34,442 nt of DNA from a virus. Below the pieces are notes generated by a model. The model was not told where the DNA came from. It searched no databases and worked only from the letters and a program-made list of their open reading frames with translations. The stretch is taken from IMG/VR virus record IMGVR_UViG_3300009182_003811, positions 1 to 34,442 of that record. One strand, given 5' to 3'. Every line of letters begins with the position of its first letter. Position 1 is the first letter of the stretch. The translations under genes were made by a program, and so were the position numbers. This document shows, piece after piece, positions 9,621 to 31,994 of the stretch.

Positions 9621-11369
9621 ATGGCCGTAGTCCAAATTAGTCGCATACAAATCCGTCGTGGTAAAGCAAACGCAGGAACTGGATTCCCGCAATTGGCCAG
9701 CGGTGAAATGGGGTGGGCAGTCGACACCCAAGAATTATACATAGGTAACGGTGCTGTTAGTGAAGGAGCTCCTGCGGTAGGCAATACTAAGATTCTAACA
9801 CAAAATGATCTTAATATTGACGGCAATCTATTACAACATCTAGTACACATTTATAAAGTTGCTGATGCTAATGTGTTAACTGGTGAAAATCCAGGAACCC
9901 CAACAACTCGTTTCATGCAAGACAAATTAGACGATGTTGTTTATGTTGCAGATTTTGGTGCAGTCGGTGATGGCGCAGTTGATGATACTGTTGCAATTCA
10001 AAGAGCAATTGATCAATTATTTTTAAATTCTAACGGTAAATCGTCTATACAAAGTGAATATACTAGCATGACTCGGGTTAGTCTAGTATTTGCACCGGGA
10101 ACTTATCGCGTAACAAATACTTTGTATATTCCAAGCTATACTACTATAGTCGGTGCTGGATCAGATAAAACTATCATAACACACTACGGCAATGAACCAG
10201 CTATTATATTTGTAAATGACAATTCATCAATAGGCCATCCTAACGTCCAAATATCAACTACTCTATATAATACACAACCAAGACATATTACAATGAAGGG
10301 GTTGTCAGTTACTATTGATACAACTACACAACCTGCATTAAAATTTGATGCAGTTCGAAATAGTATTTTTGAAGATTTATATATTATAGGTTCATCTAGT
10401 TCTTCATCTAGCTCAAATAGTAGAGGAATTTCTTTAAATGCACTTAGCAGTATTGTAACTTGTCAAGATAATATTTTTAAAAATATTCGTATATCGGGAT
10501 TTAAGTACGCAGTATACAGTAAACAAGATATTTTAAATAATGTTTTTGAAGATTGTTATATTACTGATGTTAAGTACGGATTTATACTAGGCGGAGATCA
10601 GGACAACATTGATGAGACTCCAGCAAACGGTGCAACAGTCGGTGAGCAATACGGTCCAAGAGAAAGTAAAATCATAAGAGCTAAATTTGATAATGTAAAA
10701 CGTCATGCTATATACGTTTATAGAGGAACTGCAAATACTTTTAGAGATTGTAATTTATCTAATGTTGGGGCAAATGGCGGCGGATTATCATTATCAGCCT
10801 ATCCGCAAATCTTTATCAATACACCGGGTAACTTAATTGAAGGTCTAAATTCTGATAGAAACGATCCTTCTTTAAATTCTAGTCTAGCATCGCCATTAGC
10901 GACTACACCTTATCTACCTGAAGTTGCAGGTGTTGGAACTTTTTCACTTTACGGAACAAATTCTACGTCAATTGGACAAGCATCAAACACTATATTATTT
11001 AGACTACCAGTATCAACTAGTCGATCATCTGTACCGACAAGTTCGATAACTCATAGAGTAAATTATATCTATCATAGCTTCTCTGGAAATTTTACAAGAA
11101 GCGGAGTACTTACAATTGTTGCAGATATTAATGCATCTAAAGCATTATCGTCAAGTATCATTTCAATTTCGGATGATTATACTATTGCAGGGAATTTAAC
11201 TCCACTTAATCAAATAAAATTAAGTTTTTCAGCGTCATATCTAAACGGATCCAATACTGCATATACTGGTGCAGTCGGTACTGTTCCTCAAACTATTGTA
11301 GTCAAGTACACTAATACATTTGGTGATACTGGTGCATTCAGTTATTCTTACACTTCAATTTTTAATTAA
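9621..11369 (+). CDS. Tail spike or fibre with pectate-lyase-like beta-helix
   Basis: A 582-residue receptor-binding-type protein. The N-terminal part reads IQIRRGKANAGTGFPQL then GEMGWAVDTQELYIGNG, the repeat seen at the attachment end of many phage fibres. A pectate-lyase-3-type start follows, DFGAVGDGAVDDTVAIQ (about residues 111-127), then a right-handed beta-helix-like stretch (LYIPSYTTIVGAGSD, ITMKGLSVT, NIFKNIRISGF) and a C-terminal beta-rich domain. It likely binds and perhaps cuts a host surface polysaccharide. Own late promoter, no partner gene in the same transcript. Confidence 0.8.
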   Translation: MAVVQISRIQIRRGKANAGTGFPQLASGEMGWAVDTQELYIGNGAVSEGAPAVGNTKILTQNDLNIDGNLLQHLVHIYKVADANVLTGENPGTPTTRFMQDKLDDVVYVADFGAVGDGAVDDTVAIQRAIDQLFLNSNGKSSIQSEYTSMTRVSLVFAPGTYRVTNTLYIPSYTTIVGAGSDKTIITHYGNEPAIIFVNDNSSIGHPNVQISTTLYNTQPRHITMKGLSVTIDTTTQPALKFDAVRNSIFEDLYIIGSSSSSSSSNSRGISLNALSSIVTCQDNIFKNIRISGFKYAVYSKQDILNNVFEDCYITDVKYGFILGGDQDNIDETPANGATVGEQYGPRESKIIRAKFDNVKRHAIYVYRGTANTFRDCNLSNVGANGGGLSLSAYPQIFINTPGNLIEGLNSDRNDPSLNSSLASPLATTPYLPEVAGVGTFSLYGTNSTSIGQASNTILFRLPVSTSRSSVPTSSITHRVNYIYHSFSGNFTRSGVLTIVADINASKALSSSIISISDDYTIAGNLTPLNQIKLSFSASYLNGSNTAYTGAVGTVPQTIVVKYTNTFGDTGAFSYSYTSIFN

Positions 11370-11579
11370 TTCGATCTTAACTACCATTATGGTAGACTTT
11401 GATGAAAAATACGTATATTATTAATACTTTTAGTGTGATAAGATTCTGATTCCAAATTATATCAAATAAAACCTATTTAAAACAACAGGAGATGTGCGAT
11501 TCTTAATAAGATTAATAGGTTACATCGGGTTCACTAAATACTTCCTAAACAGAAATATACTCAAGTAAAAGTGAAATAA
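11370..11579 (+). other. 210-bp leader or intergenic stretch before nrdA
   Basis: There is no long ORF here. It holds a 6-bp hairpin (CTACCA/TGGTAG, 11381-11395) that is too weak and lacks a T-run for a confident terminator. It also holds AT-rich promoter-like DNA without a clear hexamer pair, and an AGGAG (near 11490) not positioned before any convincing start. The nrdA ATG lies in AAATAAATG with no Shine-Dalgarno. The length suggests a regulatory leader for the reductase genes. Confidence 0.4.
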
Positions 11580-13910
11580 ATGACAAAAATAACGGTTACA
11601 AAACGTAATGGAGCTAAAGAACCATTAACAATTGAAAAATGGCAGACACAGATAGCAAAAGTATGCGCAGGTATTGCAGATGTTAGCCAAAGTATGGTTG
11701 AGATCAAAGCTCAACTACATTTTTATGATGGCATAACAACTAAAGAAATTGACGGCATTACTCTACGTGCAATTGTAGATCTAATTGATGTTGAATCAAA
11801 TCCAGATGTAGGGCACACTAACTATCAATATGTAGCAGGCAAACAACGTTTGTCAATGCTACGTAAGGATGTATACGGTTCATACGAACCTCCTCACTTA
11901 TATGAAATTGTAAAGACCAATGTAGCAACAGGTCTGTATACTCCTGATCTACTAAAATGGTACAGTGAAGAAGACTGGAATAAAATGAATGATATTATTG
12001 ATCATTCAAAAGACGAACAGTATGGTTATGCGGCTATTGAACAATTGATAGAAAAATATCTAGTTAAAAATCGTAGCACAAGACAAACTTACGAAACACC
12101 TCAAGTTCGATATATGATTGCGGCGGCCACAGTGTTTCACAAAGAAGAGCCAAACAGTGCTCGAATGAAATATATTAAGGAATACTACAATGCGGCTAGT
12201 GACGGACTCTTTACATTGGCCACGCCGGTATTGGCAGGCCTTGGTACTCCTACTAAACAGTTTAGTAGTTGTGTTCTTATTAGGTCGGATGATGATTTGG
12301 ACAGTATTTTCGCGTCCGGAGAGATGATGGCCAAGTATGCCAGCAAGCGAGCTGGCATTGGTTTAGAGATTGGAAGACTACGTCCACTAGGCAGTCCTAT
12401 CCGTGGTGGCGAAATCATGCATACTGGTATGATCCCGTTCCTAAAGAAATGGTTTGGTGATTTACGTTCATGTTCCCAAGGAGGTATTCGTAATGCTAGT
12501 GCTACTGTGTTCTATCCTATTTGGCATCATCAGTTTGATGATCTTATTGTACTTAAAAACAACCAAGGAACCGAAGAAACCAGAGTCCGACACATGGACT
12601 ACGGAGTCGTCCTCTCCGCCTTCTTCTGGAGACGATTTCGAAACAAGGAAACTATAACTTTCTTTGATCCAAACGAAGTTCCAGACTTATACGAGGCGTT
12701 TTATAAAAACACAAGCCTGTTTGAAGAACTATATGTCAAGTACGAACAGCGTAAGGATCTAAGAAAAAAAACAATGAGTGCTGAAGAAGTGTTCAAGAGT
12801 GGCATTTTAAAAGAACGTACTGATACAGGACGTATCTATCTTGTGTTTATCGACAATGTAATGAACCAGGGACCGTTCGACCCTGAGTATCATACAATCT
12901 ACCAGAGTAACCTTTGCTGTGAAATTCTATTACCTACAAAATCTTTCAAGCGCCTTGATGATGCTGACGGCCGTATTGCTCTCTGCACATTGGGTTCAAT
13001 CAATTGGGGAGCTTTCCGTAATCCAGAAGATATGCGTAGGGCTTGCCGTATTCTACAACGTAGTCTTTGCAATATATTGGACTACCAAGATTTTCTATCA
13101 ATCCAAAGCAAACTAAGCAACGACGAAATACAGCCACTTGGCATTGGTGTTACTAATCTAGCCTACTGGCATGCCAAGCGTGGCTTACGCTATGGCGACA
13201 AAGATGCACTACAAGATGTAAAGAGTTGGATAGAACATCAGGCATTTTACCTAACAGAAGCTACTGTAGAATTAGCCAAAGAACGCGGGGCGTGTACACA
13301 TAGTAATAAGACACGCTATGGGCAAGGCTTTTTCCCTTGGGAATTACGTGCCAAAGGAGTAAATGACCTTGCCGACTTTACACCAGAACTTGACTGGGAA
13401 ACACTACGTACTAATATGAAACAATACGGAGTTCGAAATGCTACACTTATGGCTATTGCTCCTGTTGAAAGTTCTAGTGTTGTTATTAACAGTACTAATG
13501 GCATTGAAATGCCTATGTCGCTTATTTCAACTAAGGAAAGCAAAGCAGGTTCTTTTACACAAGTTGTACCTGAATATGCTAAACTAAAAAACAAATATCA
13601 AATGATGTGGGAACAAAAAGACTGTGATGGTTATTTAAAAACAGCCAGTGTGTTAGCTGCCTATGTTGATCAGAGTATAAGTACTAACACATTTTATAAT
13701 CCAGCACACTTTGCAGATCGCAAGGTTCCAACTACATTGATTGCTAAAAATTTAATGCAGGCCCATATATGGGGTTTAAAAACATTCTATTATAGTTTGA
13801 TTAATAAAGCTGGTAGTAAAAACATAGACGAAGATATTGTGCAATCTATTGCACAAAATTATGTTGAAATTGAATACGATGAAGATGATTGTGAGGCATG
13901 TAAACTATGA
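11580..13910 (+). CDS. nrdA: Class I ribonucleotide reductase large subunit NrdA
   Basis: A 776-residue catalytic subunit that reduces ribonucleoside diphosphates to deoxy forms for phage DNA synthesis. Residues 1-90 are an ATP cone (ITVTKRNGAKEPLTIEKW). Active-site features line up with E. coli NrdA: redox Cys231 (QFSSCVLI) and Cys469 (ALCTLGS), thiyl-radical loop N444-L-C446-C-E448, radical-transfer Tyr737-Tyr738 (TFYYSLI), and C-terminal shuttle cysteines 771 and 774 (CEACKL). Full length and apparently intact. It overlaps the next gene by 4 nt and works with NrdB and the glutaredoxin downstream. Confidence 0.97.
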   Translation: MTKITVTKRNGAKEPLTIEKWQTQIAKVCAGIADVSQSMVEIKAQLHFYDGITTKEIDGITLRAIVDLIDVESNPDVGHTNYQYVAGKQRLSMLRKDVYGSYEPPHLYEIVKTNVATGLYTPDLLKWYSEEDWNKMNDIIDHSKDEQYGYAAIEQLIEKYLVKNRSTRQTYETPQVRYMIAAATVFHKEEPNSARMKYIKEYYNAASDGLFTLATPVLAGLGTPTKQFSSCVLIRSDDDLDSIFASGEMMAKYASKRAGIGLEIGRLRPLGSPIRGGEIMHTGMIPFLKKWFGDLRSCSQGGIRNASATVFYPIWHHQFDDLIVLKNNQGTEETRVRHMDYGVVLSAFFWRRFRNKETITFFDPNEVPDLYEAFYKNTSLFEELYVKYEQRKDLRKKTMSAEEVFKSGILKERTDTGRIYLVFIDNVMNQGPFDPEYHTIYQSNLCCEILLPTKSFKRLDDADGRIALCTLGSINWGAFRNPEDMRRACRILQRSLCNILDYQDFLSIQSKLSNDEIQPLGIGVTNLAYWHAKRGLRYGDKDALQDVKSWIEHQAFYLTEATVELAKERGACTHSNKTRYGQGFFPWELRAKGVNDLADFTPELDWETLRTNMKQYGVRNATLMAIAPVESSSVVINSTNGIEMPMSLISTKESKAGSFTQVVPEYAKLKNKYQMMWEQKDCDGYLKTASVLAAYVDQSISTNTFYNPAHFADRKVPTTLIAKNLMQAHIWGLKTFYYSLINKAGSKNIDEDIVQSIAQNYVEIEYDEDDCEACKL

Positions 13911-18052: not shown

Positions 18053-18658
18053 ATGCTCTATAACTTACTCGATGGCCGCGAACTTTTATTTTTACATATA
18101 CCAAAAAATGCAGGGACAAGTGTAAGAATATGGTTGCGGGGCATTGCAGAAAAAGTTGACGTTGGAGTTGCAGACGAAAATCACGGGCATTTATCTTTAG
18201 AACTACTAAAGAGCAAAGTAAGTATGCCACATAAATCTTTTACTATTGTGAGGAATCCATGGGATAGGACTATATCCTCGTACTTTTTTGGTCTTCATAT
18301 GTTTAAGGCCGCCCTTGTGGAATTTAACAACGGAAATGTTCCTACATTTGAAGATTTTGTATGCAATTTAAGAGATGGGTTTACTTTAGGTAATCCTAGT
18401 TTGTCTCAACCACAGGCAAATTGGATTACTTCTCCAATAGATTATATTTTAAAATTTGAAAATTTAACGCAAGACTTTGCAGTAATACAGCAGTATGTAG
18501 GTAATAATAATCCTCTACCTATAGAAAATACTAGGTATCAATTTAATAAAATAGATAATTTGCCCTATCAAGAATACTATAATGATACTACACAAAAAAT
18601 TGTAGAAGACATCTTTCAAAAAGATATTTTAGAATTTGGATATAAATTTAATGACTAA
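18053..18658 (+). CDS. PAPS-dependent sulfotransferase family protein
   Basis: A 201-residue sulfotransferase. The 5'-phosphosulfate loop is LHIPKNAGTS (residues 14-23) with Lys18. HGHLSL (44-49) is the usual candidate catalytic-histidine region, and the 3'-phosphate-binding segment is TIVRNPWDRTISSYF (64-78). It would transfer sulfate from PAPS to a hydroxyl or amine acceptor, most likely a glycan. The next gene encodes an APS kinase-type domain that could supply PAPS, and their ORFs overlap by 8 nt. Acceptor unknown. Confidence 0.88.
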   Translation: MLYNLLDGRELLFLHIPKNAGTSVRIWLRGIAEKVDVGVADENHGHLSLELLKSKVSMPHKSFTIVRNPWDRTISSYFFGLHMFKAALVEFNNGNVPTFEDFVCNLRDGFTLGNPSLSQPQANWITSPIDYILKFENLTQDFAVIQQYVGNNNPLPIENTRYQFNKIDNLPYQEYYNDTTQKIVEDIFQKDILEFGYKFND

Positions 18659-19442
18659 ACGAATTTTAATTATGGGATTACCAGGATCCGGTAAAACCAC
18701 ACTAGCAAACGCATTAAGACAGCAACTATGGGAAGAAGGGCGCACTGTCAGCTGGTTCAATGCAGACGAAGTACGTAAGGCAAACAATGATTGGGATTTT
18801 AGCGAAGCGGGACGTATTAGACAGAGTGTACGTATGCGAGAGATGGCTAATAAATCTAATACTGATTATGTAATATGTGATTTTGTAGCACCCATTCCTG
18901 CAATGAGAAATAACTTTAAAGCAGATTGGACCGTATGGGTTGACACAATTTCTGAGGGTCGATATGCAGATACTAATAAAATGTTTGTAGAACCTGATGT
19001 TTATGATTTCCGTATTACAGAACAAAACGCCGACAAATGGGCCGAGTTTATCTCAGATCATATTAATAATGATCGTAGACGTCCTACGTTTGATTGGCAA
19101 AAAGAAACTGTTCAAATGCTAGGGCGCTGGCAACCGTGGCATGATGGACATCGTGCCTTGTTTAATCGTGCTATTGCTAAAACAGGACAAGTTGTTATAC
19201 AAATTCGAGATTGTCAAGGTTGGCAAGGCACTAATCCATTTGCTATAGAACAGGTTAAATATTTTATACGTAGAGATTTAGATCCCTTATATCAAGGACA
19301 ATATGAAATACAAGTGGTTCCTAATATTGTTAATATTACTTACGGTCGCGATGTCGGCTATAGAATTGAACAAGAGTCCTTTGACGAATCGATTACCGAT
19401 ATCTCAGCGACCAAGATAAGAAAAGAGCTAGGATTAAAATAA
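18651..19442 (+). CDS. APS kinase-like / HxGH nucleotidyltransferase fusion
   Basis: 263 residues in two domains. Residues 1-140 are a P-loop kinase of the adenylylsulfate-kinase type: GLPGSGKTT (9-17), FNADEVR (36-42), FSEAGRIRQSVRM (50-62), VICDFVAPIPAMR (74-86). Residues 155-263 are an adenylyltransferase-type Rossmann domain with GRWQPWHDGH (158-167, HxGH) and ISATKIR (251-257, ISxTxxR). The domain order kinase then nucleotidyltransferase is that of animal PAPS synthase, whose sulfurylase half also carries an HxGH motif. The second domain could equally be an NMN- or CTP-type transferase. ATG 18651 overlaps the sulfotransferase gene. Confidence 0.8.
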   Translation: MTKRILIMGLPGSGKTTLANALRQQLWEEGRTVSWFNADEVRKANNDWDFSEAGRIRQSVRMREMANKSNTDYVICDFVAPIPAMRNNFKADWTVWVDTISEGRYADTNKMFVEPDVYDFRITEQNADKWAEFISDHINNDRRRPTFDWQKETVQMLGRWQPWHDGHRALFNRAIAKTGQVVIQIRDCQGWQGTNPFAIEQVKYFIRRDLDPLYQGQYEIQVVPNIVNITYGRDVGYRIEQESFDESITDISATKIRKELGLK

Positions 19443-19443
19443 A

Positions 19444-20487
19444 ATGAAAATTAGTAAAATACCAGGACTTGGAAGATTTGGAGTCTTTATCGATGATTTA
19501 GATTTTAATAATATTACAGACGAAGAATGGATGGAAATTGGTAAGTTACATTTAGAAAGCCTTGTTACTATAATAAGAAATGTAAATTTAACTGCCGAGC
19601 AATATGAAAATCAAATTGAAAAGTGGGGTAGTGCAAGAAACTTTTCAACATATCGTGTACTTAAAAAATATAATTTAACGCATCTGTCTCAAATATTTAC
19701 TGCACCTAATATCAGTGAAGAAGACATTTTCTGGGCAAAAAGTTTAGTCAACTTAATTTCTTTAGATACTAAAGGAAGCAGAAAAGACACTAACATACTT
19801 AGAGTATCTGGATTAAAGAATGAAAAAGGACAGCCATTGGGTATGTTTGCCGAAGGCGAATTACTCTGGCATTCAAATGAATCTGGAAATCTTTTGTTTG
19901 CACCGGGTGTAAGTTTACTTGGAAGTCGTGGATTAGTTGGTAGTTCTACCGGGTTTGTAACAACCGCAGACTGGTACGAAAAACAAAACGAAAGTTTTCG
20001 TAGCGAACTAGACGAAATGATTATTTTACACAAATTTACTCCCGGTCGTATTAATCCTGGATTAACACGCACAGAACAGGAAGAAATTGTTTATAAAAAT
20101 ATGTGTCCTGAACCTTCAGAATTACCGTTAGTAATACAAAGTCCTATAGGTATTAAAGGTCTTCATTATAGTGTGAACACTATAGATGGTATTAAAGGCA
20201 TGACCAAAGCAGAATCAGATTTAGTATTTGCTCAAATAGATAAAACATTATTTGTTGACGAATACATCTACGATCATTGGTATCAACAAGATAACGATCT
20301 TGTTCTGTTTGATAATTCAATTACATTACATAGACGACTGGGTGGTGTTGCAAACAGACTATGTTACCGTATACAATATGATTACGGAAAACTAGCACCA
20401 GATAATCAACCATATTTAACTGAACCATATGCTAGACAATATGCTGAATTAAAAGTTGACGTTAATTCAATGTTAGGAATAAACTAA
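19444..20487 (+). CDS. TauD/TfdA-like Fe(II)/2-oxoglutarate oxygenase with altered iron site
   Basis: A 347-residue double-stranded beta-helix oxygenase. Core motifs: LLWHSNESGNLLFAPG (141-155), VGSSTGFVTTADWYE (165-179), and the distal histidine and arginine in LVLFDNSITLHRR plus NRLCYRIQYDYG (His296, Arg305/309). The usual metal motif H-x-D/E reads H143-S-N145, with Glu146 next, so the carboxylate ligand is changed or shifted. Its operon partners are sulfotransferase and APS kinase upstream and IscU downstream. It may hydroxylate a sulfonated, sulfated or amino-acid substrate, or may be a non-canonical enzyme. Confidence 0.75.
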   Translation: MKISKIPGLGRFGVFIDDLDFNNITDEEWMEIGKLHLESLVTIIRNVNLTAEQYENQIEKWGSARNFSTYRVLKKYNLTHLSQIFTAPNISEEDIFWAKSLVNLISLDTKGSRKDTNILRVSGLKNEKGQPLGMFAEGELLWHSNESGNLLFAPGVSLLGSRGLVGSSTGFVTTADWYEKQNESFRSELDEMIILHKFTPGRINPGLTRTEQEEIVYKNMCPEPSELPLVIQSPIGIKGLHYSVNTIDGIKGMTKAESDLVFAQIDKTLFVDEYIYDHWYQQDNDLVLFDNSITLHRRLGGVANRLCYRIQYDYGKLAPDNQPYLTEPYARQYAELKVDVNSMLGIN

Positions 20488-20488
20488 T

Positions 20489-20869
20489 ATGGCGTATTCA
20501 GAAAAAGTAATCGACCACTACGAAAATCCACGTAACGTAGGATCGTTTGATAAGAATGATCCTACAGTGGGTACTGGTATGGTTGGTGCTCCTGCCTGTG
20601 GTGATGTAATGAAGTTACAAATAAAGGTAGAAAATGGGATCATCACAGACGCCAGATTCAAGACATACGGTTGTGGTTCAGCGATTGCGTCAAGCTCTCT
20701 TATTACAGAATGGGTTAAAGGCAAAACGCTGGACCAAGCAGGAACTATCCGAAATTCTGAAATTGCTGAAGAACTTGCTCTCCCGCCCGTAAAAATACAT
20801 TGTTCAATATTAGCAGAGGATGCTGTTAAAGCCGCAGTAGCCGATTATAGGAAAAAATTTAATGATTAA
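20489..20869 (+). CDS. iscU: Fe-S cluster scaffold IscU
   Basis: A 126-residue scaffold on which [2Fe-2S] clusters are built. All key residues are present: Cys37 and Asp39 (GAPACGDV), Cys62 ([10 protein letters not shown]), His104 and Cys105 (HCSILAED), and the Hsp70-recognition loop LPPVK (98-102). It starts one base after the oxygenase stop and overlaps erpA by 8 nt. No cysteine desulfurase is in the window, so sulfur must come from host IscS. The LPPVK loop could engage host HscA or the phage DnaK. Confidence 0.96.
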
Positions 20870-21191
20870 TATATCCGAGTCAGCAAAAACAAAAATTAAA
20901 GACTTACTGTTAGAAGAAAATAATCCTAAACTATCATTACGTACATTTGTACAAGGCGGTGGCTGTAGTGGTATGAGTTACGGATTTACATTTGATGAAG
21001 AAATGAACGAAGATGATTTTGAAATTCCTCTAGATGGGTTTCGTGTTCTAGTTGATAGTATGAGTATGCAATATCTTACTGGTGCAGAAATAGATTATAA
21101 AGAAGAACTGATGGGTAGTCAATTTGTAATAACAAATCCAAACGCACAAACAACTTGTGGGTGTGGTTCAAGTTTTAGTCCCAATGATTAA
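20862..21191 (+). CDS. erpA: A-type Fe-S carrier, ErpA-like
   Basis: 109 residues with the A-type carrier cysteines Cys35 ([11 protein letters not shown]), Cys99 and Cys101 ([10 protein letters not shown]). The GGGCSGM and [14 protein letters not shown] blocks are ErpA-like rather than IscA-like. It accepts clusters from IscU and passes them to apo-proteins. It overlaps iscU by 8 nt and iscA by 8 nt, so the three are translated as a unit. Confidence 0.93.
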
Positions 21192-21510
21192 TATAACTGA
21201 TCAGGCCAAACACCAAATTAAAAAGATCCTAGCTAAACGTGGAAAAGGCGTTGGCATTAGAATTGGCGTTAGAACTACGGGATGTAGTGGATTAGCCTAT
21301 GTATTAGAATACGTAGATAAGTATGAGGCAGAAGTAGGAGTAACTAACTTTGCTCAACCTGATTTTTGTGTCCTAGTTGATGCTAAGTCACAAGTATATC
21401 TAAATGGCTTAACAATGGATTGGGTCCGCAATGGACTTAATGAAGGTTTTGATTTCCAAAACCCAAATGAACGTGATCGCTGTGGGTGTGGCGAGTCATT
21501 TCGAGTCTAA
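21184..21510 (+). CDS. iscA: A-type Fe-S carrier IscA
   Basis: 108 residues from ATG 21184; a 21157 start would run inside erp[21 protein letters not shown] and [19 protein letters not shown] are very close to E. coli IscA. Cluster ligands are Cys34, Cys100 and Cys102. It forms a third, separate Fe-S assembly gene with IscU and ErpA. A perfect sigma70 promoter for the next gene starts 11 nt after its stop. Confidence 0.95.
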
Positions 21511-24565: not shown

Positions 24566-24976
24566 ATGAACTTAGGAAAAATAACAGTAATTACTCCACC
24601 TGATAAGTTGTTTAATCTAACATTAAGTTACTTGTTAGTTAAACCAAGTGTTCACGTAAAACAACAATTTCAAGCAATTCTAAGCCATAGTTTAGATGAT
24701 CTTAATGTGTTTATCTATGATGCAGAAGATCACGACACTAGCTGGCTATTAGATGTATCACAACAAGTCGATATTGTTATAATTGATGTTGACAATTGCG
24801 ATGAAATAACTAAAAAATTCATTTCTTTTATTATTGCACATCCAAATGCACACTACATTACTAGTGATGAAACAACCCCATATAACCTAATAAGCAAAAA
24901 TCGGATATATAATTTAGATTGGATTGTAGATCAACTAAAAGATAACGAGGACACTGATGATTCAGAAGAAGAATAA
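24566..24976 (+). CDS. Hypothetical protein (136 aa)
   Basis: MNLGKITVITPPDKLFNLTL..., an alpha/beta protein with VDIVIIDVDNCDEITKKF and a very acidic tail (KDNEDTDDSEEE). The strand-helix order is Rossmann-like with IIDVDN as a buried strand, but no nucleotide-binding motif is present. It overlaps the bS21 gene by 20 nt, so the two are coupled. Function unknown. Confidence 0.7.
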   Translation: MNLGKITVITPPDKLFNLTLSYLLVKPSVHVKQQFQAILSHSLDDLNVFIYDAEDHDTSWLLDVSQQVDIVIIDVDNCDEITKKFISFIIAHPNAHYITSDETTPYNLISKNRIYNLDWIVDQLKDNEDTDDSEEE

Positions 24977-25190
24977 AGGAACTGGTATTACAGTTCGAGA
25001 AGGAGAAAACATTAACCAAAGTCTCCGTCGATTTAAGAATAAAGTAGAAGATGCAGGTACATTAGATGACCTACGCAAAAAAGAGTTTTACGAAAAACCA
25101 ACTACAACTCGTAAACGTGCCAAAGGTGCTGCCAAAGCACGTTGGCGCAAGAAGCTCGAAAAAGATCAATTACCACCTAAATTATATTGA
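24957..25190 (+). CDS. rpsU: Ribosomal protein bS21
   Basis: 77 residues with the full bS21 signature: ITVREGENINQSLRRFKNKV, then EFYEKPTTTRKRAKGAAKAR and a Lys-rich end. bS21 sits at the 30S platform near the anti-Shine-Dalgarno of 16S rRNA and exchanges easily. A phage copy could enter host ribosomes and shift initiation toward phage mRNAs. The start ATG lies in the 3' end of the preceding gene. Its stop codon overlaps the -35 of the next promoter. Confidence 0.95.
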   Translation: MIQKKNKGTGITVREGENINQSLRRFKNKVEDAGTLDDLRKKEFYEKPTTTRKRAKGAAKARWRKKLEKDQLPPKLY

Positions 25191-26183: not shown

Positions 26184-28097
26184 ATGAGCAAAATCATCGG
26201 TATCGATTTAGGTACAACAAATAGCTGTGTAGCAATTCTAGAAAACGGAGTTGCAAAAGTAATCGAAAACAGCGAAGGTGCTAGAACAACACCATCAATC
26301 ATTGCATATACAAAGGACGAAATCCTAGTTGGTGCAACAGCAAAACGACAAGCAGTCACAAACCCAAAAAATACAATCTACGCAAGTAAGCGTTTAATCG
26401 GACGTAAGTTTGATGAAGCGGCTGTGCAGAAAGATATTGATCTAATGCCATATAGCATTATCAAAGCTGACAACGGCGATGCATGGGTACAAGTAGATGA
26501 ACAAAAATTAGCACCACCACAAATTTCAGCTGAAGTACTTCGCAAAATGAAAAAGACTGCTGAAGATTATCTTGGCAGTGAAGTAACTAAGGCAGTTATT
26601 ACTGTTCCAGCTTACTTTAACGACAGTCAACGTCAGGCAACTAAGGATGCAGGTAAGATTGCTGGCCTAGAAGTTCTACGTATTATCAACGAACCAACAG
26701 CGGCCGCACTTGCTTATGGTGTAGACAAAGCAGATAAAAAAGATCGTAAAGTTGCTGTCTATGACCTAGGTGGTGGTACATTTGACGTATCAATTATTGA
26801 AATTGCCAACATCGACGGCGACAAGCAAATCGAAGTATTGAGCACAAACGGAGATACATTCCTAGGTGGTGAAGACTTTGACCAAGCTATTATGGATCAT
26901 CTAGTAGATGAGTTTAAGAAAGACACTGGTGTTGATCTTAAGAAAGATATGCTTGCCCTACAGCGTCTAAAAGAAGCCGCAGAAAAAGCCAAGATTGAAT
27001 TGTCAAGCACTACAACTACCACAGTTAACCTTCCATACGTAACTGCGGATGCAAGTGGTCCTAAACACTTGAATGTAACTATTAGTCGTGCTAAGTTTGA
27101 ACAAATGGTTGACAAACTAATTGAGCGTTCAATTGAGCCATGTAAGATTGCTATGAAAGATGCTAAGGTTACAGCCGCTGACATCGACGAAGTTATTCTA
27201 GTTGGTGGACAAACACGTATGCCTAAAGTACAAGAAGCAGTTGAGAAATTGTTTGGCAAGGCTCCACGTAAGGACGTTAACCCAGACGAAGCAGTTGCCG
27301 CAGGTGCCGCAATTCAAGGCGCCGTTCTAGCAGGCGACAAGACAGATGTTCTATTGTTAGATGTTACACCACTAACATTAGGTATTGAAACAATGGGCGG
27401 TGTGTTTACCAAGTTGATTCAAAAGAATACAACTATCCCTACTAAACACAGCCAAGTGTTTTCAACAGCAGAAGATAACCAACCAGCTGTGACTATTAAG
27501 GTTGCACAAGGTGAACGTGATATCTTCAAATATAACAAGATGCTACGTGAATTTAATCTAGAAGGTATTGCACCAGCAATGCGTGGTATGCCACAGATTG
27601 AAGTTACCCTAGACATAGATGCTAACGGTATCTTGAATGTAAGTGCCAAGGATAAAAACACTGGCAAAGAAAACAAGATCACTATCAAGTCTGATTCAGG
27701 ATTAACTGAAGCTGAAATTCAACGTATGATTAAAGAAGCTGAAGAAAATGCTGAAGCAGATAAGAAGGCAGCAGAATTGATCAATGCACGTAATCAAGCC
27801 GAAAGTACTAAACATACTATCAAGAAAGACTATGATACGTACAAGGATCAATTAACTGAAGAGGAGCAAACTAAATTTGAAGATGGTCTTAAGGCATTGG
27901 AAGAAGTTAGTGCAGGAGAAGATCCTGAAGCAATCCAAAAATCAGTTAGCGAATTCTTTGAAGCCGCTGGTCCAGTTATGACTAAGAAACAAGCCGCAGA
28001 ATCTGCTAAAGCAGAAGCTGAGAAAAAGGCTGCTGAATCTGGTGAACAAACTGTAGATGCGAGCTTCACAGAAGTTGACGCAACAGAGAAGAAGTAA
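26184..28097 (+). CDS. dnaK: Full-length chaperone DnaK (Hsp70)
   Basis: 637 residues, complete. ATPase domain with GIDLGTTNS (6-14) and [11 protein letters not shown] (about 193-203), linker-type [14 protein letters not shown] (about 389-402), substrate-binding domain and a helical lid with an Ala/Glu-rich tail ending EVDATEKK. It folds client proteins with a J-protein and GrpE, neither of which is in the window, so it would use host partners. It may help virion assembly or pull clusters off the phage IscU, which keeps LPPVK. A full Hsp70 is rare in phages. Confidence 0.97.
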
Positions 28098-28167: not shown

Positions 28168-28593
28168 ATGACACAACTAAGAACTATTGACGCCGCTCAT
28201 CTTGCTAATCTTAGCAGAGCACTTGTGGGATTTGACCGTTATTTTAACGGGCATTTTTCAAACACTAACGGTAACTACCCTCCACACAATATTGTAAAAT
28301 ATGACGAAAGTCATTATGGTATTGAAATAGCAGTTGCCGGGTTTAGTAAAGAAGAAATCACAGTAGAAGTTGATCAAGACCAACTTACTGTCCGTGGAGA
28401 ACATAATGTTCCTGCTGATCCAGAATATCAGTATCTGCATCGTGGTCTTGCGGCACGTGATTTTGAACAAACATATACTCTAGCCGAGTATATGGAAGTT
28501 CGAGGCGCAGAAGTTAAGGATGGTATGCTTAAAATTGAAATTGAGCGTATTGTTCCAGAGGCTCTTAAACCACGTCAAATAGAAATAAAATAA
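28168..28593 (+). CDS. ibpA: Small heat-shock protein, IbpA-type (Hsp20)
   Basis: 141 residues with an IbpA-like N-terminus (VGFDRYFNGHF), an alpha-crystallin domain (KYDESHYGIEIAVAGFSKEE, VDQDQLTVRGEH, HRGLAARDFEQTYTLAEYME) and the C-terminal GMLKIEIERIVPEALKPRQI with the IEI anchor. It holds unfolding proteins for refolding by DnaK. Such genes are common in T4-like cyanophages and other marine myophages. Here it sits directly behind a phage dnaK, with its own promoter and a thermometer-like leader. Confidence 0.95.
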   Translation: MTQLRTIDAAHLANLSRALVGFDRYFNGHFSNTNGNYPPHNIVKYDESHYGIEIAVAGFSKEEITVEVDQDQLTVRGEHNVPADPEYQYLHRGLAARDFEQTYTLAEYMEVRGAEVKDGMLKIEIERIVPEALKPRQIEIK

Positions 28594-28651: not shown

Positions 28652-28954
28652 ATGTCAAGCACCGATATTAAAATAGATGAGAGAATTAAGATAAAAGTAA
28701 GTGAGCCACTTCGTTGGAAGGTTATCTTACTTAATGATGACAGCACTCCTGTCGATTTTGTAATAAGTTTGTTAATTGAAGTGTTTAGGCATACTCCTGT
28801 TACTGCCCAAGAAATTACTCTAGCAGTACATGAAACTGGCTCAGGTGTTGCAGGTGTTTATAGTTTTGAAATTGCCGAAGCAAAAGCAGTTGAATCTACG
28901 TCGATGGCTCGTACTAGCGGCTGGCCTCTCCAAATTAAACTGGAGGAAGAATGA
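28652..28954 (+). CDS. clpS: ClpS, adaptor of the ClpAP protease
   Basis: 100 residues: WKVILLNDDSTPVDFV (Asn28, Asp29, Asp30) and AVHETGSGVAGVYSFEIAEA (His60) contain the N-degron pocket residues. The C-terminal part is conserved as ARTSGWPLQIKLEEE. It delivers N-end-rule substrates to host ClpA, and at high level blocks other ClpA substrates. A phage copy could redirect host proteolysis. It overlaps the heme oxygenase gene by 4 nt (ATGA). Confidence 0.94.
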   Translation: MSSTDIKIDERIKIKVSEPLRWKVILLNDDSTPVDFVISLLIEVFRHTPVTAQEITLAVHETGSGVAGVYSFEIAEAKAVESTSMARTSGWPLQIKLEEE

Positions 28955-29493
28955 GCCTACGTGATATAACACACGATTTACACGCAGACGCAGAACGCAC
29001 AATATTTGCCAAAAAGTTAGTAACAGGCTCGTTCACCGCAGACGAGTATGCTAACTATCTTTGGCAAATGGTTTTAGTATACAACGGCATAGAAACTGCC
29101 GCTAATAGTCAAGGCATGCTAAAGAATTTGCCTGATATTGAAAGAGCACACAAGATATTTCAGGACTGTATGGAACTAGTGGGCATACATCACAATCTTA
29201 AATGGCTACCTGAGACTATTGACTATTACAAATATCTACTTGAATTAAACTACGATCCAGAACGTAGACACTTAATCAAAGCACACCTATACTGCCGCCA
29301 TATGGGCGATTTGTTTGGTGGACAGATTATTGCTAAGAAATGTCCTGGCTCGGGTCGTTTCTATCAATTTAAAGATGCAGAAAATTTAAAAACAGCCATA
29401 CGTGCAGAACTTACTGACGATCTCGGTGACGAAGCTCGTGTAGCATTTGCGTGGGCAATTAAAATTATGAAAGCGTTGGTAAAAGATGAGTGA
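28951..29493 (+). CDS. ho1: Heme oxygenase (biliverdin-forming)
   Basis: 180 residues, all-alpha. Proximal His11 in DLHADAERTIF, and the distal-helix signature HLYCRHMGDLFGGQIIAK (112-129). It opens heme to biliverdin IX-alpha, iron and CO using reduced ferredoxin. It overlaps clpS (4 nt) and the bilin reductase (8 nt), forming an ho1-reductase pair as in some ocean virus contigs. Products: biliverdin for the next enzyme and free iron that could feed the Fe-S genes. Confidence 0.93.
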   Translation: MSLRDITHDLHADAERTIFAKKLVTGSFTADEYANYLWQMVLVYNGIETAANSQGMLKNLPDIERAHKIFQDCMELVGIHHNLKWLPETIDYYKYLLELNYDPERRHLIKAHLYCRHMGDLFGGQIIAKKCPGSGRFYQFKDAENLKTAIRAELTDDLGDEARVAFAWAIKIMKALVKDE

Positions 29494-30166
29494 CGTATGG
29501 AACACACTAATAGAAGTTGAACAATATTTTGAATCAAAATTCTATGCTACAGGTAGTATTATACACGAACCGGGTATGGAACGTTTTAATCAACCTGGCT
29601 GGGTCAACAAAGTGTGGCAAAGCAGTCGTTATCGTAGGGCGCACATAGATGTCGTCGACGCTCGGGAGAGCAAAGGCCTATGGATGATGCATTGCTGTAT
29701 CTTTCCTTATACACATAATCCTGCTCCTATTTTTGGATTTGATGTAATTGCAGGTAAGAATAAGATCACTGGATGCTTTTATGATTTTAGCCCAGCAGGT
29801 AATATTGATCATCCAATGCTAGAATGGTTTGCAGAACAAGCAATACGCCTACAATGGAATAAGACTCGAAAATTACCAGACTGGGCAGAACGTATATTCA
29901 GCTCAAGTATGGTTGCCGCAGGTAATGTAAGTGATGCTACAGAACTTGAACAGATCATGGCAATGGCCCGTAACGGCATTGATCATTATCTAGAAGCAGT
30001 AAGCGAAACTAACAATACAGCAAGAGATACTAGAGAATTACAGAATTTTTACTGTAGTAATCAAAAACAAAACCCGCATACACCTAAAGTTATGGCTAGT
30101 TTAGGCTTAAACGAAGCCGATGTGCAGGCATTCATTCAGGATTGTTTGTTCCCAGAAATAGTATAA
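29486..30166 (+). CDS. pcyX: Ferredoxin-dependent bilin reductase (PcyX/PcyA-like)
   Basis: 226 residues of the bilin reductase family. Core: RAHIDVVDARESKG (50-63), WMMHCCIFPYTHNPAPIFGF (66-85), DVIAGKNKITGCFYDFSPAG (86-105), and the C-terminal FYCSNQKQNPHTPKVMASLG with LFPEIV. Relative to Synechocystis PcyA, His69 and Asp86 match His88 and Asp105, while the Glu76 position is Asp55, a change I recall for viral PcyX. The substrate is biliverdin from the overlapping ho1. The product could be phycoerythrobilin or phycocyanobilin. Electrons come from host ferredoxin. Confidence 0.9.
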   Translation: MSDVWNTLIEVEQYFESKFYATGSIIHEPGMERFNQPGWVNKVWQSSRYRRAHIDVVDARESKGLWMMHCCIFPYTHNPAPIFGFDVIAGKNKITGCFYDFSPAGNIDHPMLEWFAEQAIRLQWNKTRKLPDWAERIFSSSMVAAGNVSDATELEQIMAMARNGIDHYLEAVSETNNTARDTRELQNFYCSNQKQNPHTPKVMASLGLNEADVQAFIQDCLFPEIV

Positions 30167-30176: not shown

Positions 30177-31994
30177 ATGCGTGTAATTGACATTTTATCA
30201 GAATCAATCTTAACAGAAGACCATTTAAAATCAAAGGATTTTAAAGAGCGTTATCGACTTGCAAACCTTATTGACAAGTTAAAACACAAAAAGCCATTTC
30301 ATGCCTTGTCCGGCGATCCTATTATAATTTCAGACGTTACACCTGCTGAAATTAAAGAACTTGAAGATTTTTTAAAAAATAACTTCGATCCCAAAGATCC
30401 AAGTCCAAAAGCACAACCAGTTAAACCATTTACAGTTCCTAATACAATCGGAGGTGTCCGACTAAGTACGTTACAAAAAACTAACGAATTTGGCGGAAAG
30501 ATCGCACGAGATGCTAGCGGCGAACAGGATTATACTAAAGCTAATCTAGGTCCAACTGTCGAAGCATTAAAAGCCTTTGCTATGTATGCAAAACTAATAA
30601 TGCGTGAAAAGGAACAGATTACTGTAGAAGATGTTCTTGCCGTAGGAAAGCTAGCGGATGAAAATTCTCAAATAACCTATAGCAAGAATGAAAAAACAGG
30701 AGCAGTGTCTAACAGTCCAACCACTCTTGCTGTGTATATTAAAGATGTTCCAGATGCTAACAAACAAGTTCAAGATCATTTAACACTTAAAGTAGCATTA
30801 AGTACTCCGTCTTTCAAACGAGCAGTTTTAGTTACGCCAACTGACACAGAAGCTTGGGGCAACTTACAAGGTATTGTAAAATATGTTAACGAAGAAAATG
30901 ACATTAACAAATATACCCGTTTGTTTAAAAACAACAACAAGCGAGATCCTATTAAAATTGCTGTAGTCGGTATCGGCGGTCTAAAGACAGATATTCAAGC
31001 AAGTCGCGATAACGAAGCTTGGCACGAAGGTATGGATCCAAAACTTAAAGAAAAGAATATTAAGAGTCTTAGCCTAAGTGTTAAAGCCGCGGGTGCAAAA
31101 TGGTACGATCAAGCTCCGGGTAACAAATTAGAAGGTTGGGAAGATTTTTACAAGATCATTGGATTAGATACTGGACTTGCGGCAGAAGCAATTACAGTTG
31201 CAGGCTTTATTGAAGGCGGTAAAGTAAACACAATAGCAGGCAAAAAAGCCTTTGAAAAACGTGTACAAGCGTCACACTTGATGTATGAATTTACATGGCA
31301 TAAATTGCAAGAACGTATGGCTAGTCTAAACGATAAAGGCGAAGCAGATTATATCCATCATTTTCTTGCTAACTTGAAAAAAGGTATTGCAGGCGACGAA
31401 ACACTAGTATATGTAAAGTTTGATGCTAATGGTACATACGAAAAATTAAAACCACATTTACTAATGGATTTGGCAAATGTAATTAATTTAGATGTAAACT
31501 TAGGTTCTGGTGAACGCCCAACAATTTATTGGATCGATAAAGATACTGGCAGAACATTGATATGGGTAGTGTGTGCTAAAACACCAAGTGAACAGCGTTT
31601 AACACATCAGTTTAATTTAGGTAAAGATTTCTTCCCATTATTACGCGAAGCAGAAAAACGTGCTTTTGAACGTAAGCAACAAGGTAATACAAAACTTACA
31701 ACTACTTCTAGTGGGCAAGCGCCACTAGAAGTAAAACAACGTGAAGCTTTTTTAGGTTGGGCAACTCGCTTTGCTGATCAACGTAGAGTAACAGATAGAC
31801 GTATTATTCCAAAGATAGCTAATGTAGCATTTGACTTACGTAAAGCAGGAACTCCTGAAGATGGTGTTATTGCAGAACTAGAACGTCAATTCCCACAATT
31901 GACTAATAACGTTATTAAAGCTAGAGAAGTTCCGACAACACAAAAATTATATACACCTTACGTTCCTCCAACCGAAGATGAAGAAGAAGTGTAA
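30177..31994 (+). CDS. Large protein with possible nuclease-like core and packaging peptide (605 aa)
   Basis: The N-terminus MRVIDILSESILTEDHLK has two (L/I)-x-E sites (L-S-E, L-T-E), like the internal-protein set at 4078-6921. The middle has GIGGLKTDIQAS (Asp272) followed by SLSLSVKAAGAKWYDQAPG (Lys303). A strand Asp then S-x-K spacing recalls PD-(D/E)XK-type nucleases in other marine phage proteins, but this is weak. The C-terminal ~100 residues are basic then acidic (PPTEDEEEV). Probably a late protein, possibly injected. No family recognised. Confidence 0.65.
   Translation: MRVIDILSESILTEDHLKSKDFKERYRLANLIDKLKHKKPFHALSGDPIIISDVTPAEIKELEDFLKNNFDPKDPSPKAQPVKPFTVPNTIGGVRLSTLQKTNEFGGKIARDASGEQDYTKANLGPTVEALKAFAMYAKLIMREKEQITVEDVLAVGKLADENSQITYSKNEKTGAVSNSPTTLAVYIKDVPDANKQVQDHLTLKVALSTPSFKRAVLVTPTDTEAWGNLQGIVKYVNEENDINKYTRLFKNNNKRDPIKIAVVGIGGLKTDIQASRDNEAWHEGMDPKLKEKNIKSLSLSVKAAGAKWYDQAPGNKLEGWEDFYKIIGLDTGLAAEAITVAGFIEGGKVNTIAGKKAFEKRVQASHLMYEFTWHKLQERMASLNDKGEADYIHHFLANLKKGIAGDETLVYVKFDANGTYEKLKPHLLMDLANVINLDVNLGSGERPTIYWIDKDTGRTLIWVVCAKTPSEQRLTHQFNLGKDFFPLLREAEKRAFERKQQGNTKLTTTSSGQAPLEVKQREAFLGWATRFADQRRVTDRRIIPKIANVAFDLRKAGTPEDGVIAELERQFPQLTNNVIKAREVPTTQKLYTPYVPPTEDEEEV

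Follow-up and report, generated by a model that had tools for sequence, protein, structure and literature searches.

The window analysed here is an IMG/VR virus record of 34,442 bases, probably a fragment of a longer genome. On its plus strand, the gene for an HO-1-type heme oxygenase (HO; 28951..29493, +, 180 aa) is followed by that for a PcyX-type ferredoxin-dependent bilin reductase (FDBR; 29486..30166, +, 226 aa). The stop of the first overlaps the start of the second by 8 nt (ATGAGTGA, 29486..29493, +), which suggests translational coupling; both open reading frames and their overlap lie exactly where an earlier note on this DNA had placed them. That note also had HO following clpS without a gap. 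The two genes are indeed adjacent, but they actually share 4 nt (ATGA), slightly more than was claimed. The ClpS adaptor (28652..28954, +, 100 aa; Pfam ClpS, 86 bits) is preceded by an Hsp20 small heat-shock protein (28168..28593, +, 141 aa; Pfam HSP20 and phrog_432) and by DnaK/Hsp70 (26184..28097, +, 637 aa; Pfam HSP70, 846 bits), giving a dnaK-hsp20-clpS-HO-FDBR block in which FDBR comes last. Further upstream are genes for bS21, a cell-wall hydrolase, two IscA-type proteins, IscU, a TauD-like dioxygenase and glutaredoxin, along with nrdB and nrdA. Scans for sigma-70 promoters and terminators gave counts near those of shuffled sequence. A copy of TATAAATA shares bases with the stop of FDBR, immediately ahead of the next gene; as a candidate late-promoter motif it was rejected, with 3 matches against 5.2 expected, not above chance.

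The oxygenase scores 65 bits against Pfam Heme_oxygenase (cut-off 23) and matches HmuO at E 9e-9, an alignment that makes His11 the proximal His and Asp120 the distal Asp; these residues are found in 118/119 and 119/119 unique relatives, respectively. It bears the motif GDLFGGQ, in keeping with the GDLxGGQ of HO-1-type enzymes, and its model (pLDDT 91) has an all-helical fold whose best match is rat HO-1 (TM 0.86).

The reductase scores 69 bits against Pfam Fe_bilin_red (cut-off 31). Its closest solved relative is PcyX_EBK42635 (PDB 5owg; E 8e-67), followed by Synechocystis PcyA (4e-14), and Foldseek ranks 5owg first for its AlphaFold2 model (pLDDT 92), ahead of PcyA, PebA, PebB and PebS. Aligned to Synechocystis PcyA, its Asp55, His69 and Asp86 correspond to Glu76, His88 and Asp105, bearing out the reading of the earlier note that the Asp-His pair is kept and that Asp replaces the catalytic Glu76 of PcyA. 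Within our first set of FDBR sequences, Asp55 is present in 75/76 and His69 and Asp86 in all 76. The lack of Glu76 is a published trait of PcyX (Rockwell et al. 2023, PMC10151467), and Asp55 has been described as a PcyX-specific residue, absent from the enzyme of freshwater phage CB_2, which is a PcyA (Wegner et al. 2024, PMC11480375).

The earlier note had assigned the protein to the bilin reductases, and in a maximum-likelihood tree it does fall inside them, within the phage PcyX lineage. Viral FDBRs from outside the cyanophages, PcyX and the enzyme of Pelagibacter phage Mosig among them, are separated from PcyA (Synechocystis and cyanophage P-SSM4) at 100/99, and also from PebA/PebB/PebS at 100/99. 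PebS of cyanophage P-SSM2 (PDB 2vck) presumably forms the same pigment from biliverdin on its own, but it belongs to another branch of the FDBR tree and to a phage of phototrophs, and like PebA it aligns Asn where the window enzyme has the His of the Asp-His pair. The window FDBR lies within a clade of 37 rows (100/97), beside a clade holding 5owg, Mosig and marine large phages; the node joining these two clades is weak (85/56, or 72/93 when long branches are removed). Nearby, but separate at 100/99, is a clade of phage FDBRs with Glu55.

From its place in the tree, its closest relatives and Asp55, phycoerythrobilin (PEB) is the likely product of the window FDBR. Work by Ledermann et al. in 2018 is said to have found that Asp55 is not catalytic and that its replacement failed to turn PcyX into a PcyA, so we treat the residue as a marker rather than as proof of product. 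Should the enzyme instead make phycocyanobilin (PCB) as PcyA does, or some other bilin, the closeness of the Glu55 clade and the weak node between the window clade and the assayed PcyX would fit, as would the CB_2 enzyme, a true PcyA from a cassette of the same kind (PMC11480375). We consider this unlikely, since CB_2 lacks the Asp55 that the window enzyme has, the Glu55 clade is well separated, and the best match by both sequence and fold is PcyX. Two observations on position 55 are set down here for the record. Other residues also occur there, namely Ser (L156, L179, L181), Asn (L199), His (L161) and Lys (L198), in phage reductases that sometimes fall inside the Asp55 or Glu55 clades. At locus L106 (IMGVR_UViG_3300042691_026427, 10001-11792), an HO 78% identical to that of the window is paired with a Glu55, PcyA-type reductase, one inserted hydrolase-like gene lying between them; this is possibly a reductase swap within the cassette.

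Relatives of the FDBR are encoded in 546 IMG/VR stretches. Among 104 distinct loci, HO is found at 102, hsp20 at 92, clpS at 91 and dnaK at 88, counts that are limited by contig ends; HO is adjacent to FDBR in most relatives. These loci had been chosen by FDBR or HO, and the reverse test was therefore started from relatives of the window Hsp20. All 63 such loci with at least 3 kb downstream, none selected by FDBR, have dnaK, clpS and FDBR (63/63), which makes the cassette a core rather than an optional element of this lineage. The FDBR is under purifying selection, with a median dN/dS of 0.107 over 148 pairs with 0.15<dS<1.2; these pairs were taken from elsewhere among the relatives because dS between the window and its nearest kin is saturated. 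The number of related stretches, the conserved active-site residues and this median (0.11) together argue that the gene pair is not there by chance. A capsid gene of the T4 gp23 type is present in each of the five related contigs that span 345-383 kb, from which we infer that the window probably derives from a large phage of the T4 superfamily.

Some relatives have genes inserted between HO and FDBR (desaturase-like, SAHH-like, aldolase-like, nitrilase-like and hydrolase-like), which we considered as a clue to function and set aside, as they are mutually unrelated by eye. A bacterial origin of the cassette was likewise dropped: the GTDB genome set gave two matches, both on phage-like contigs. 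Two contigs from Neomarinimicrobiota/Rickettsiales MAGs, L128 (PBPT01000016.1, 335,231 bases) and L129 (PALK01000009.1), read as large phage and are probably misbinned; they have the same cell-wall hydrolase, hsp20, clpS, HO, nitrilase-like gene and FDBR.

HO-PcyX cassettes in non-cyanophages are already known, reportedly from the metagenomic work of Ledermann et al. in 2016 and 2018; what the window adds is fixation across a lineage. The window FDBR resembles PcyX 5owg in sequence, fold, Asp/His/Asp residues and cassette partnership with HO, and differs in being about 50% identical and in having its own 37-row clade, whose product is predicted by homology. Mosig (EXVC030M, MT647606) is an isolated phage of a heterotroph with a 141 kb genome, in which HO directly overlaps a PcyX-type FDBR 51% identical to that of the window; its cassette, in contrast, lies beside neck genes, with a ferrochelatase and a phage ferredoxin, and has no dnaK-hsp20-clpS block adjoining. 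The hemO-pcyA/X-valaS cassettes found in marine as well as freshwater phages (Wegner et al. 2024, PMC11480375), including that of CB_2, likewise belong to phages that infect heterotrophs in water and, as in the window, pair HO with an FDBR of the PcyA/X type. A 5-ALA synthase (AlaS), also part of these cassettes, occurs in some relatives of the window but not in the window fragment, and CB_2, whose enzyme lacks Asp55, makes PCB. That study published freshwater phages with HO, PcyA/X and AlaS together with enzyme assays; its main text mentions no DnaK, Hsp20, ClpS or IscU. Hsp20 and Clp genes near a phage bS21 have also been published (PMC9723584). The papers searched, which took in few subscription journals, gave no account of a cassette fixed across a lineage next to dnaK-hsp20-clpS.

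We then asked what surrounds the cassette in 48 records, comprising the window, 46 viral relatives and Mosig. No GAF domain, phycobiliprotein, CpeT lyase or photosynthetic reaction-centre gene was found in any of them, an absence that carries most weight in the five large contigs, since the records are mostly fragments. The remark of the earlier note that the window has no photosystem or phycobilisome gene thus stands and extends to the 47 related records, while the phage phytochrome for which it proposed a search did not turn up, no GAF domain being present. Among matches in a plasmid collection, a limited stand-in for bacterial genomes that includes some whole chromosomes, the best for DnaK (72%), IscU (86%) and bS21 (53%, 96% covered) are all from Neisseria. 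Burkholderia and Cupriavidus come next for DnaK, and for IscU the gammaproteobacteria trail by just some 3 points. These similarities hint at a betaproteobacterial host. With no genes for photosynthesis or phycobilisomes in the close relatives, and host-like genes that look betaproteobacterial, a cyanophage is very unlikely, in agreement with the non-cyanophage genome supposed by the earlier note; the hosts are most likely heterotrophic and probably proteobacterial. Three of the Asp55-type FDBRs (L023, L067, L097) come from Lake Simoncouche (sample 3300009164, the one sample whose habitat was placed from papers). PcyX had previously been found only in marine viruses (Wegner et al., PMC11480375), whereas these Asp55-type enzymes are from a lake.

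Why phages of non-photosynthetic bacteria should make light-harvesting pigments has been a question since PcyX was described, and the earlier note posed it well as one of pigment against iron; the same cassette had already led Wegner et al. (2024, PMC11480375) to ask it. One answer is that the bilin is joined to a host or phage protein that senses or harvests light. This is the role presumed for cyanophage PebS and PcyA, and it would be in line with the Bradyrhizobium ORS278 island, where HO, PcyA and AlaS accompany a phytochrome (PMC11480375), and with the bilin-binding BBAG globins of heterotrophs (PMC10151467). The HO and FDBR are however not of cyanophage type, and GAF, phycobiliprotein, CpeT and reaction-centre genes are absent from the 48 mostly fragmentary records, so that we regard a chromophore supply of this kind as quite improbable, though the host may have a photoreceptor and a distant BBAG globin may be encoded.

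Genes of heme and iron metabolism bear on the other answer. A 5-ALA synthase is encoded in 13/48 records, though not in the window fragment, and a ferrochelatase lies close to the Mosig cassette. As both serve heme synthesis, they favour a flow into bilin over a purpose confined to iron. A phage ferredoxin was considered as electron donor and rejected, a Fer2 gene being found in Mosig only among the 48 records. IscU is encoded in 33/48 records, often 9-12 kb from FDBR. Elsewhere among viral contigs, 24 of 25 close relatives of IscU have no FDBR in the vicinity, and we therefore dropped the IscU link as specific support for iron salvage. A relative of this IscU is encoded by at least 596 stretches of IMG/VR; of 50,697 phage records, just 16 have one.

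The reading we favour, at a probability of roughly 70%, is that of a viral heme-to-bilin cassette, in which heme turnover is coupled to formation of a reduced bilin and the bilin, or the removal of biliverdin, is what is selected. HO would open heme to biliverdin IXalpha, Fe2+ and CO. The co-translated PcyX-type FDBR would then carry out a four-electron reduction of biliverdin, with electrons presumably from host ferredoxin, most likely giving PEB via 15,16-dihydrobiliverdin by means of the Asp86-His69 pair. The cassette would form the end of the dnaK-hsp20-clpS-HO-FDBR block, fixed in these phages of the T4 superfamily, and its most likely use would be controlled turnover of heme in the infected cell. 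Bilin formation or biliverdin removal may there matter as much as iron, since the FDBR is kept intact and some relatives carry 5-ALA synthase. Counting against this explanation, no bilin-using protein was found in the 48 records, which leaves the benefit unexplained.

Iron may instead be the useful product, with Fe2+ drawn from host heme and the FDBR merely clearing biliverdin that would otherwise slow HO; its destination would be the diiron ribonucleotide reductase, the Fe(II) dioxygenase and the IscU/IscA proteins encoded about 9 kb upstream. Genes for NrdB, TauD-like and IscA proteins are in the window, IscU recurs among the relatives at a distance of 9-12 kb, no bilin-binding protein was found, and the authors of the cassette papers also discuss iron supply. 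Nevertheless, the IscU link is unspecific, the 5-ALA synthase and the Mosig ferrochelatase use up iron in building heme, and HO alone would release iron, yet the lineage always retains an FDBR with an intact active site. A search of papers for biliverdin release as a limit on HO found nothing. Iron release gained no specific support from our results, and we consider it somewhat unlikely as the main purpose.

Returning to the heme-to-bilin cassette, the trait is no occasional passenger gene, being fixed across a large-phage lineage under purifying selection with no recognisable bilin-binding protein. We tentatively suggest, hardly daring even odds, that in a widespread T4-superfamily lineage of large phages with heterotrophic freshwater (perhaps betaproteobacterial) hosts, PEB synthesis may be a fixed and selected core function, placed beside the chaperone/ClpS block and serving a purpose other than light harvesting. 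With this lineage comes a delimited group of genomes, and predictions on product, host and the effect of losing the FDBR alone that can be tested to separate a pigment role from iron release.

We lastly note some other features of the window, all on the plus strand: (i) IscU and then two overlapping IscA-type genes occupy 20489-21510, without IscS. (ii) The ribosomal protein bS21 is phage-encoded at 24957-25190 (Pfam, 62 bits). (iii) Directly after FDBR, 30177-31994 encodes a 605-aa protein that has a relative at 9/104 of the related loci. (iv) Genes for a sulfotransferase, an APS-kinase-like protein and the TauD-like dioxygenase follow in series at 18053-20487, possibly a sulfur-related set.
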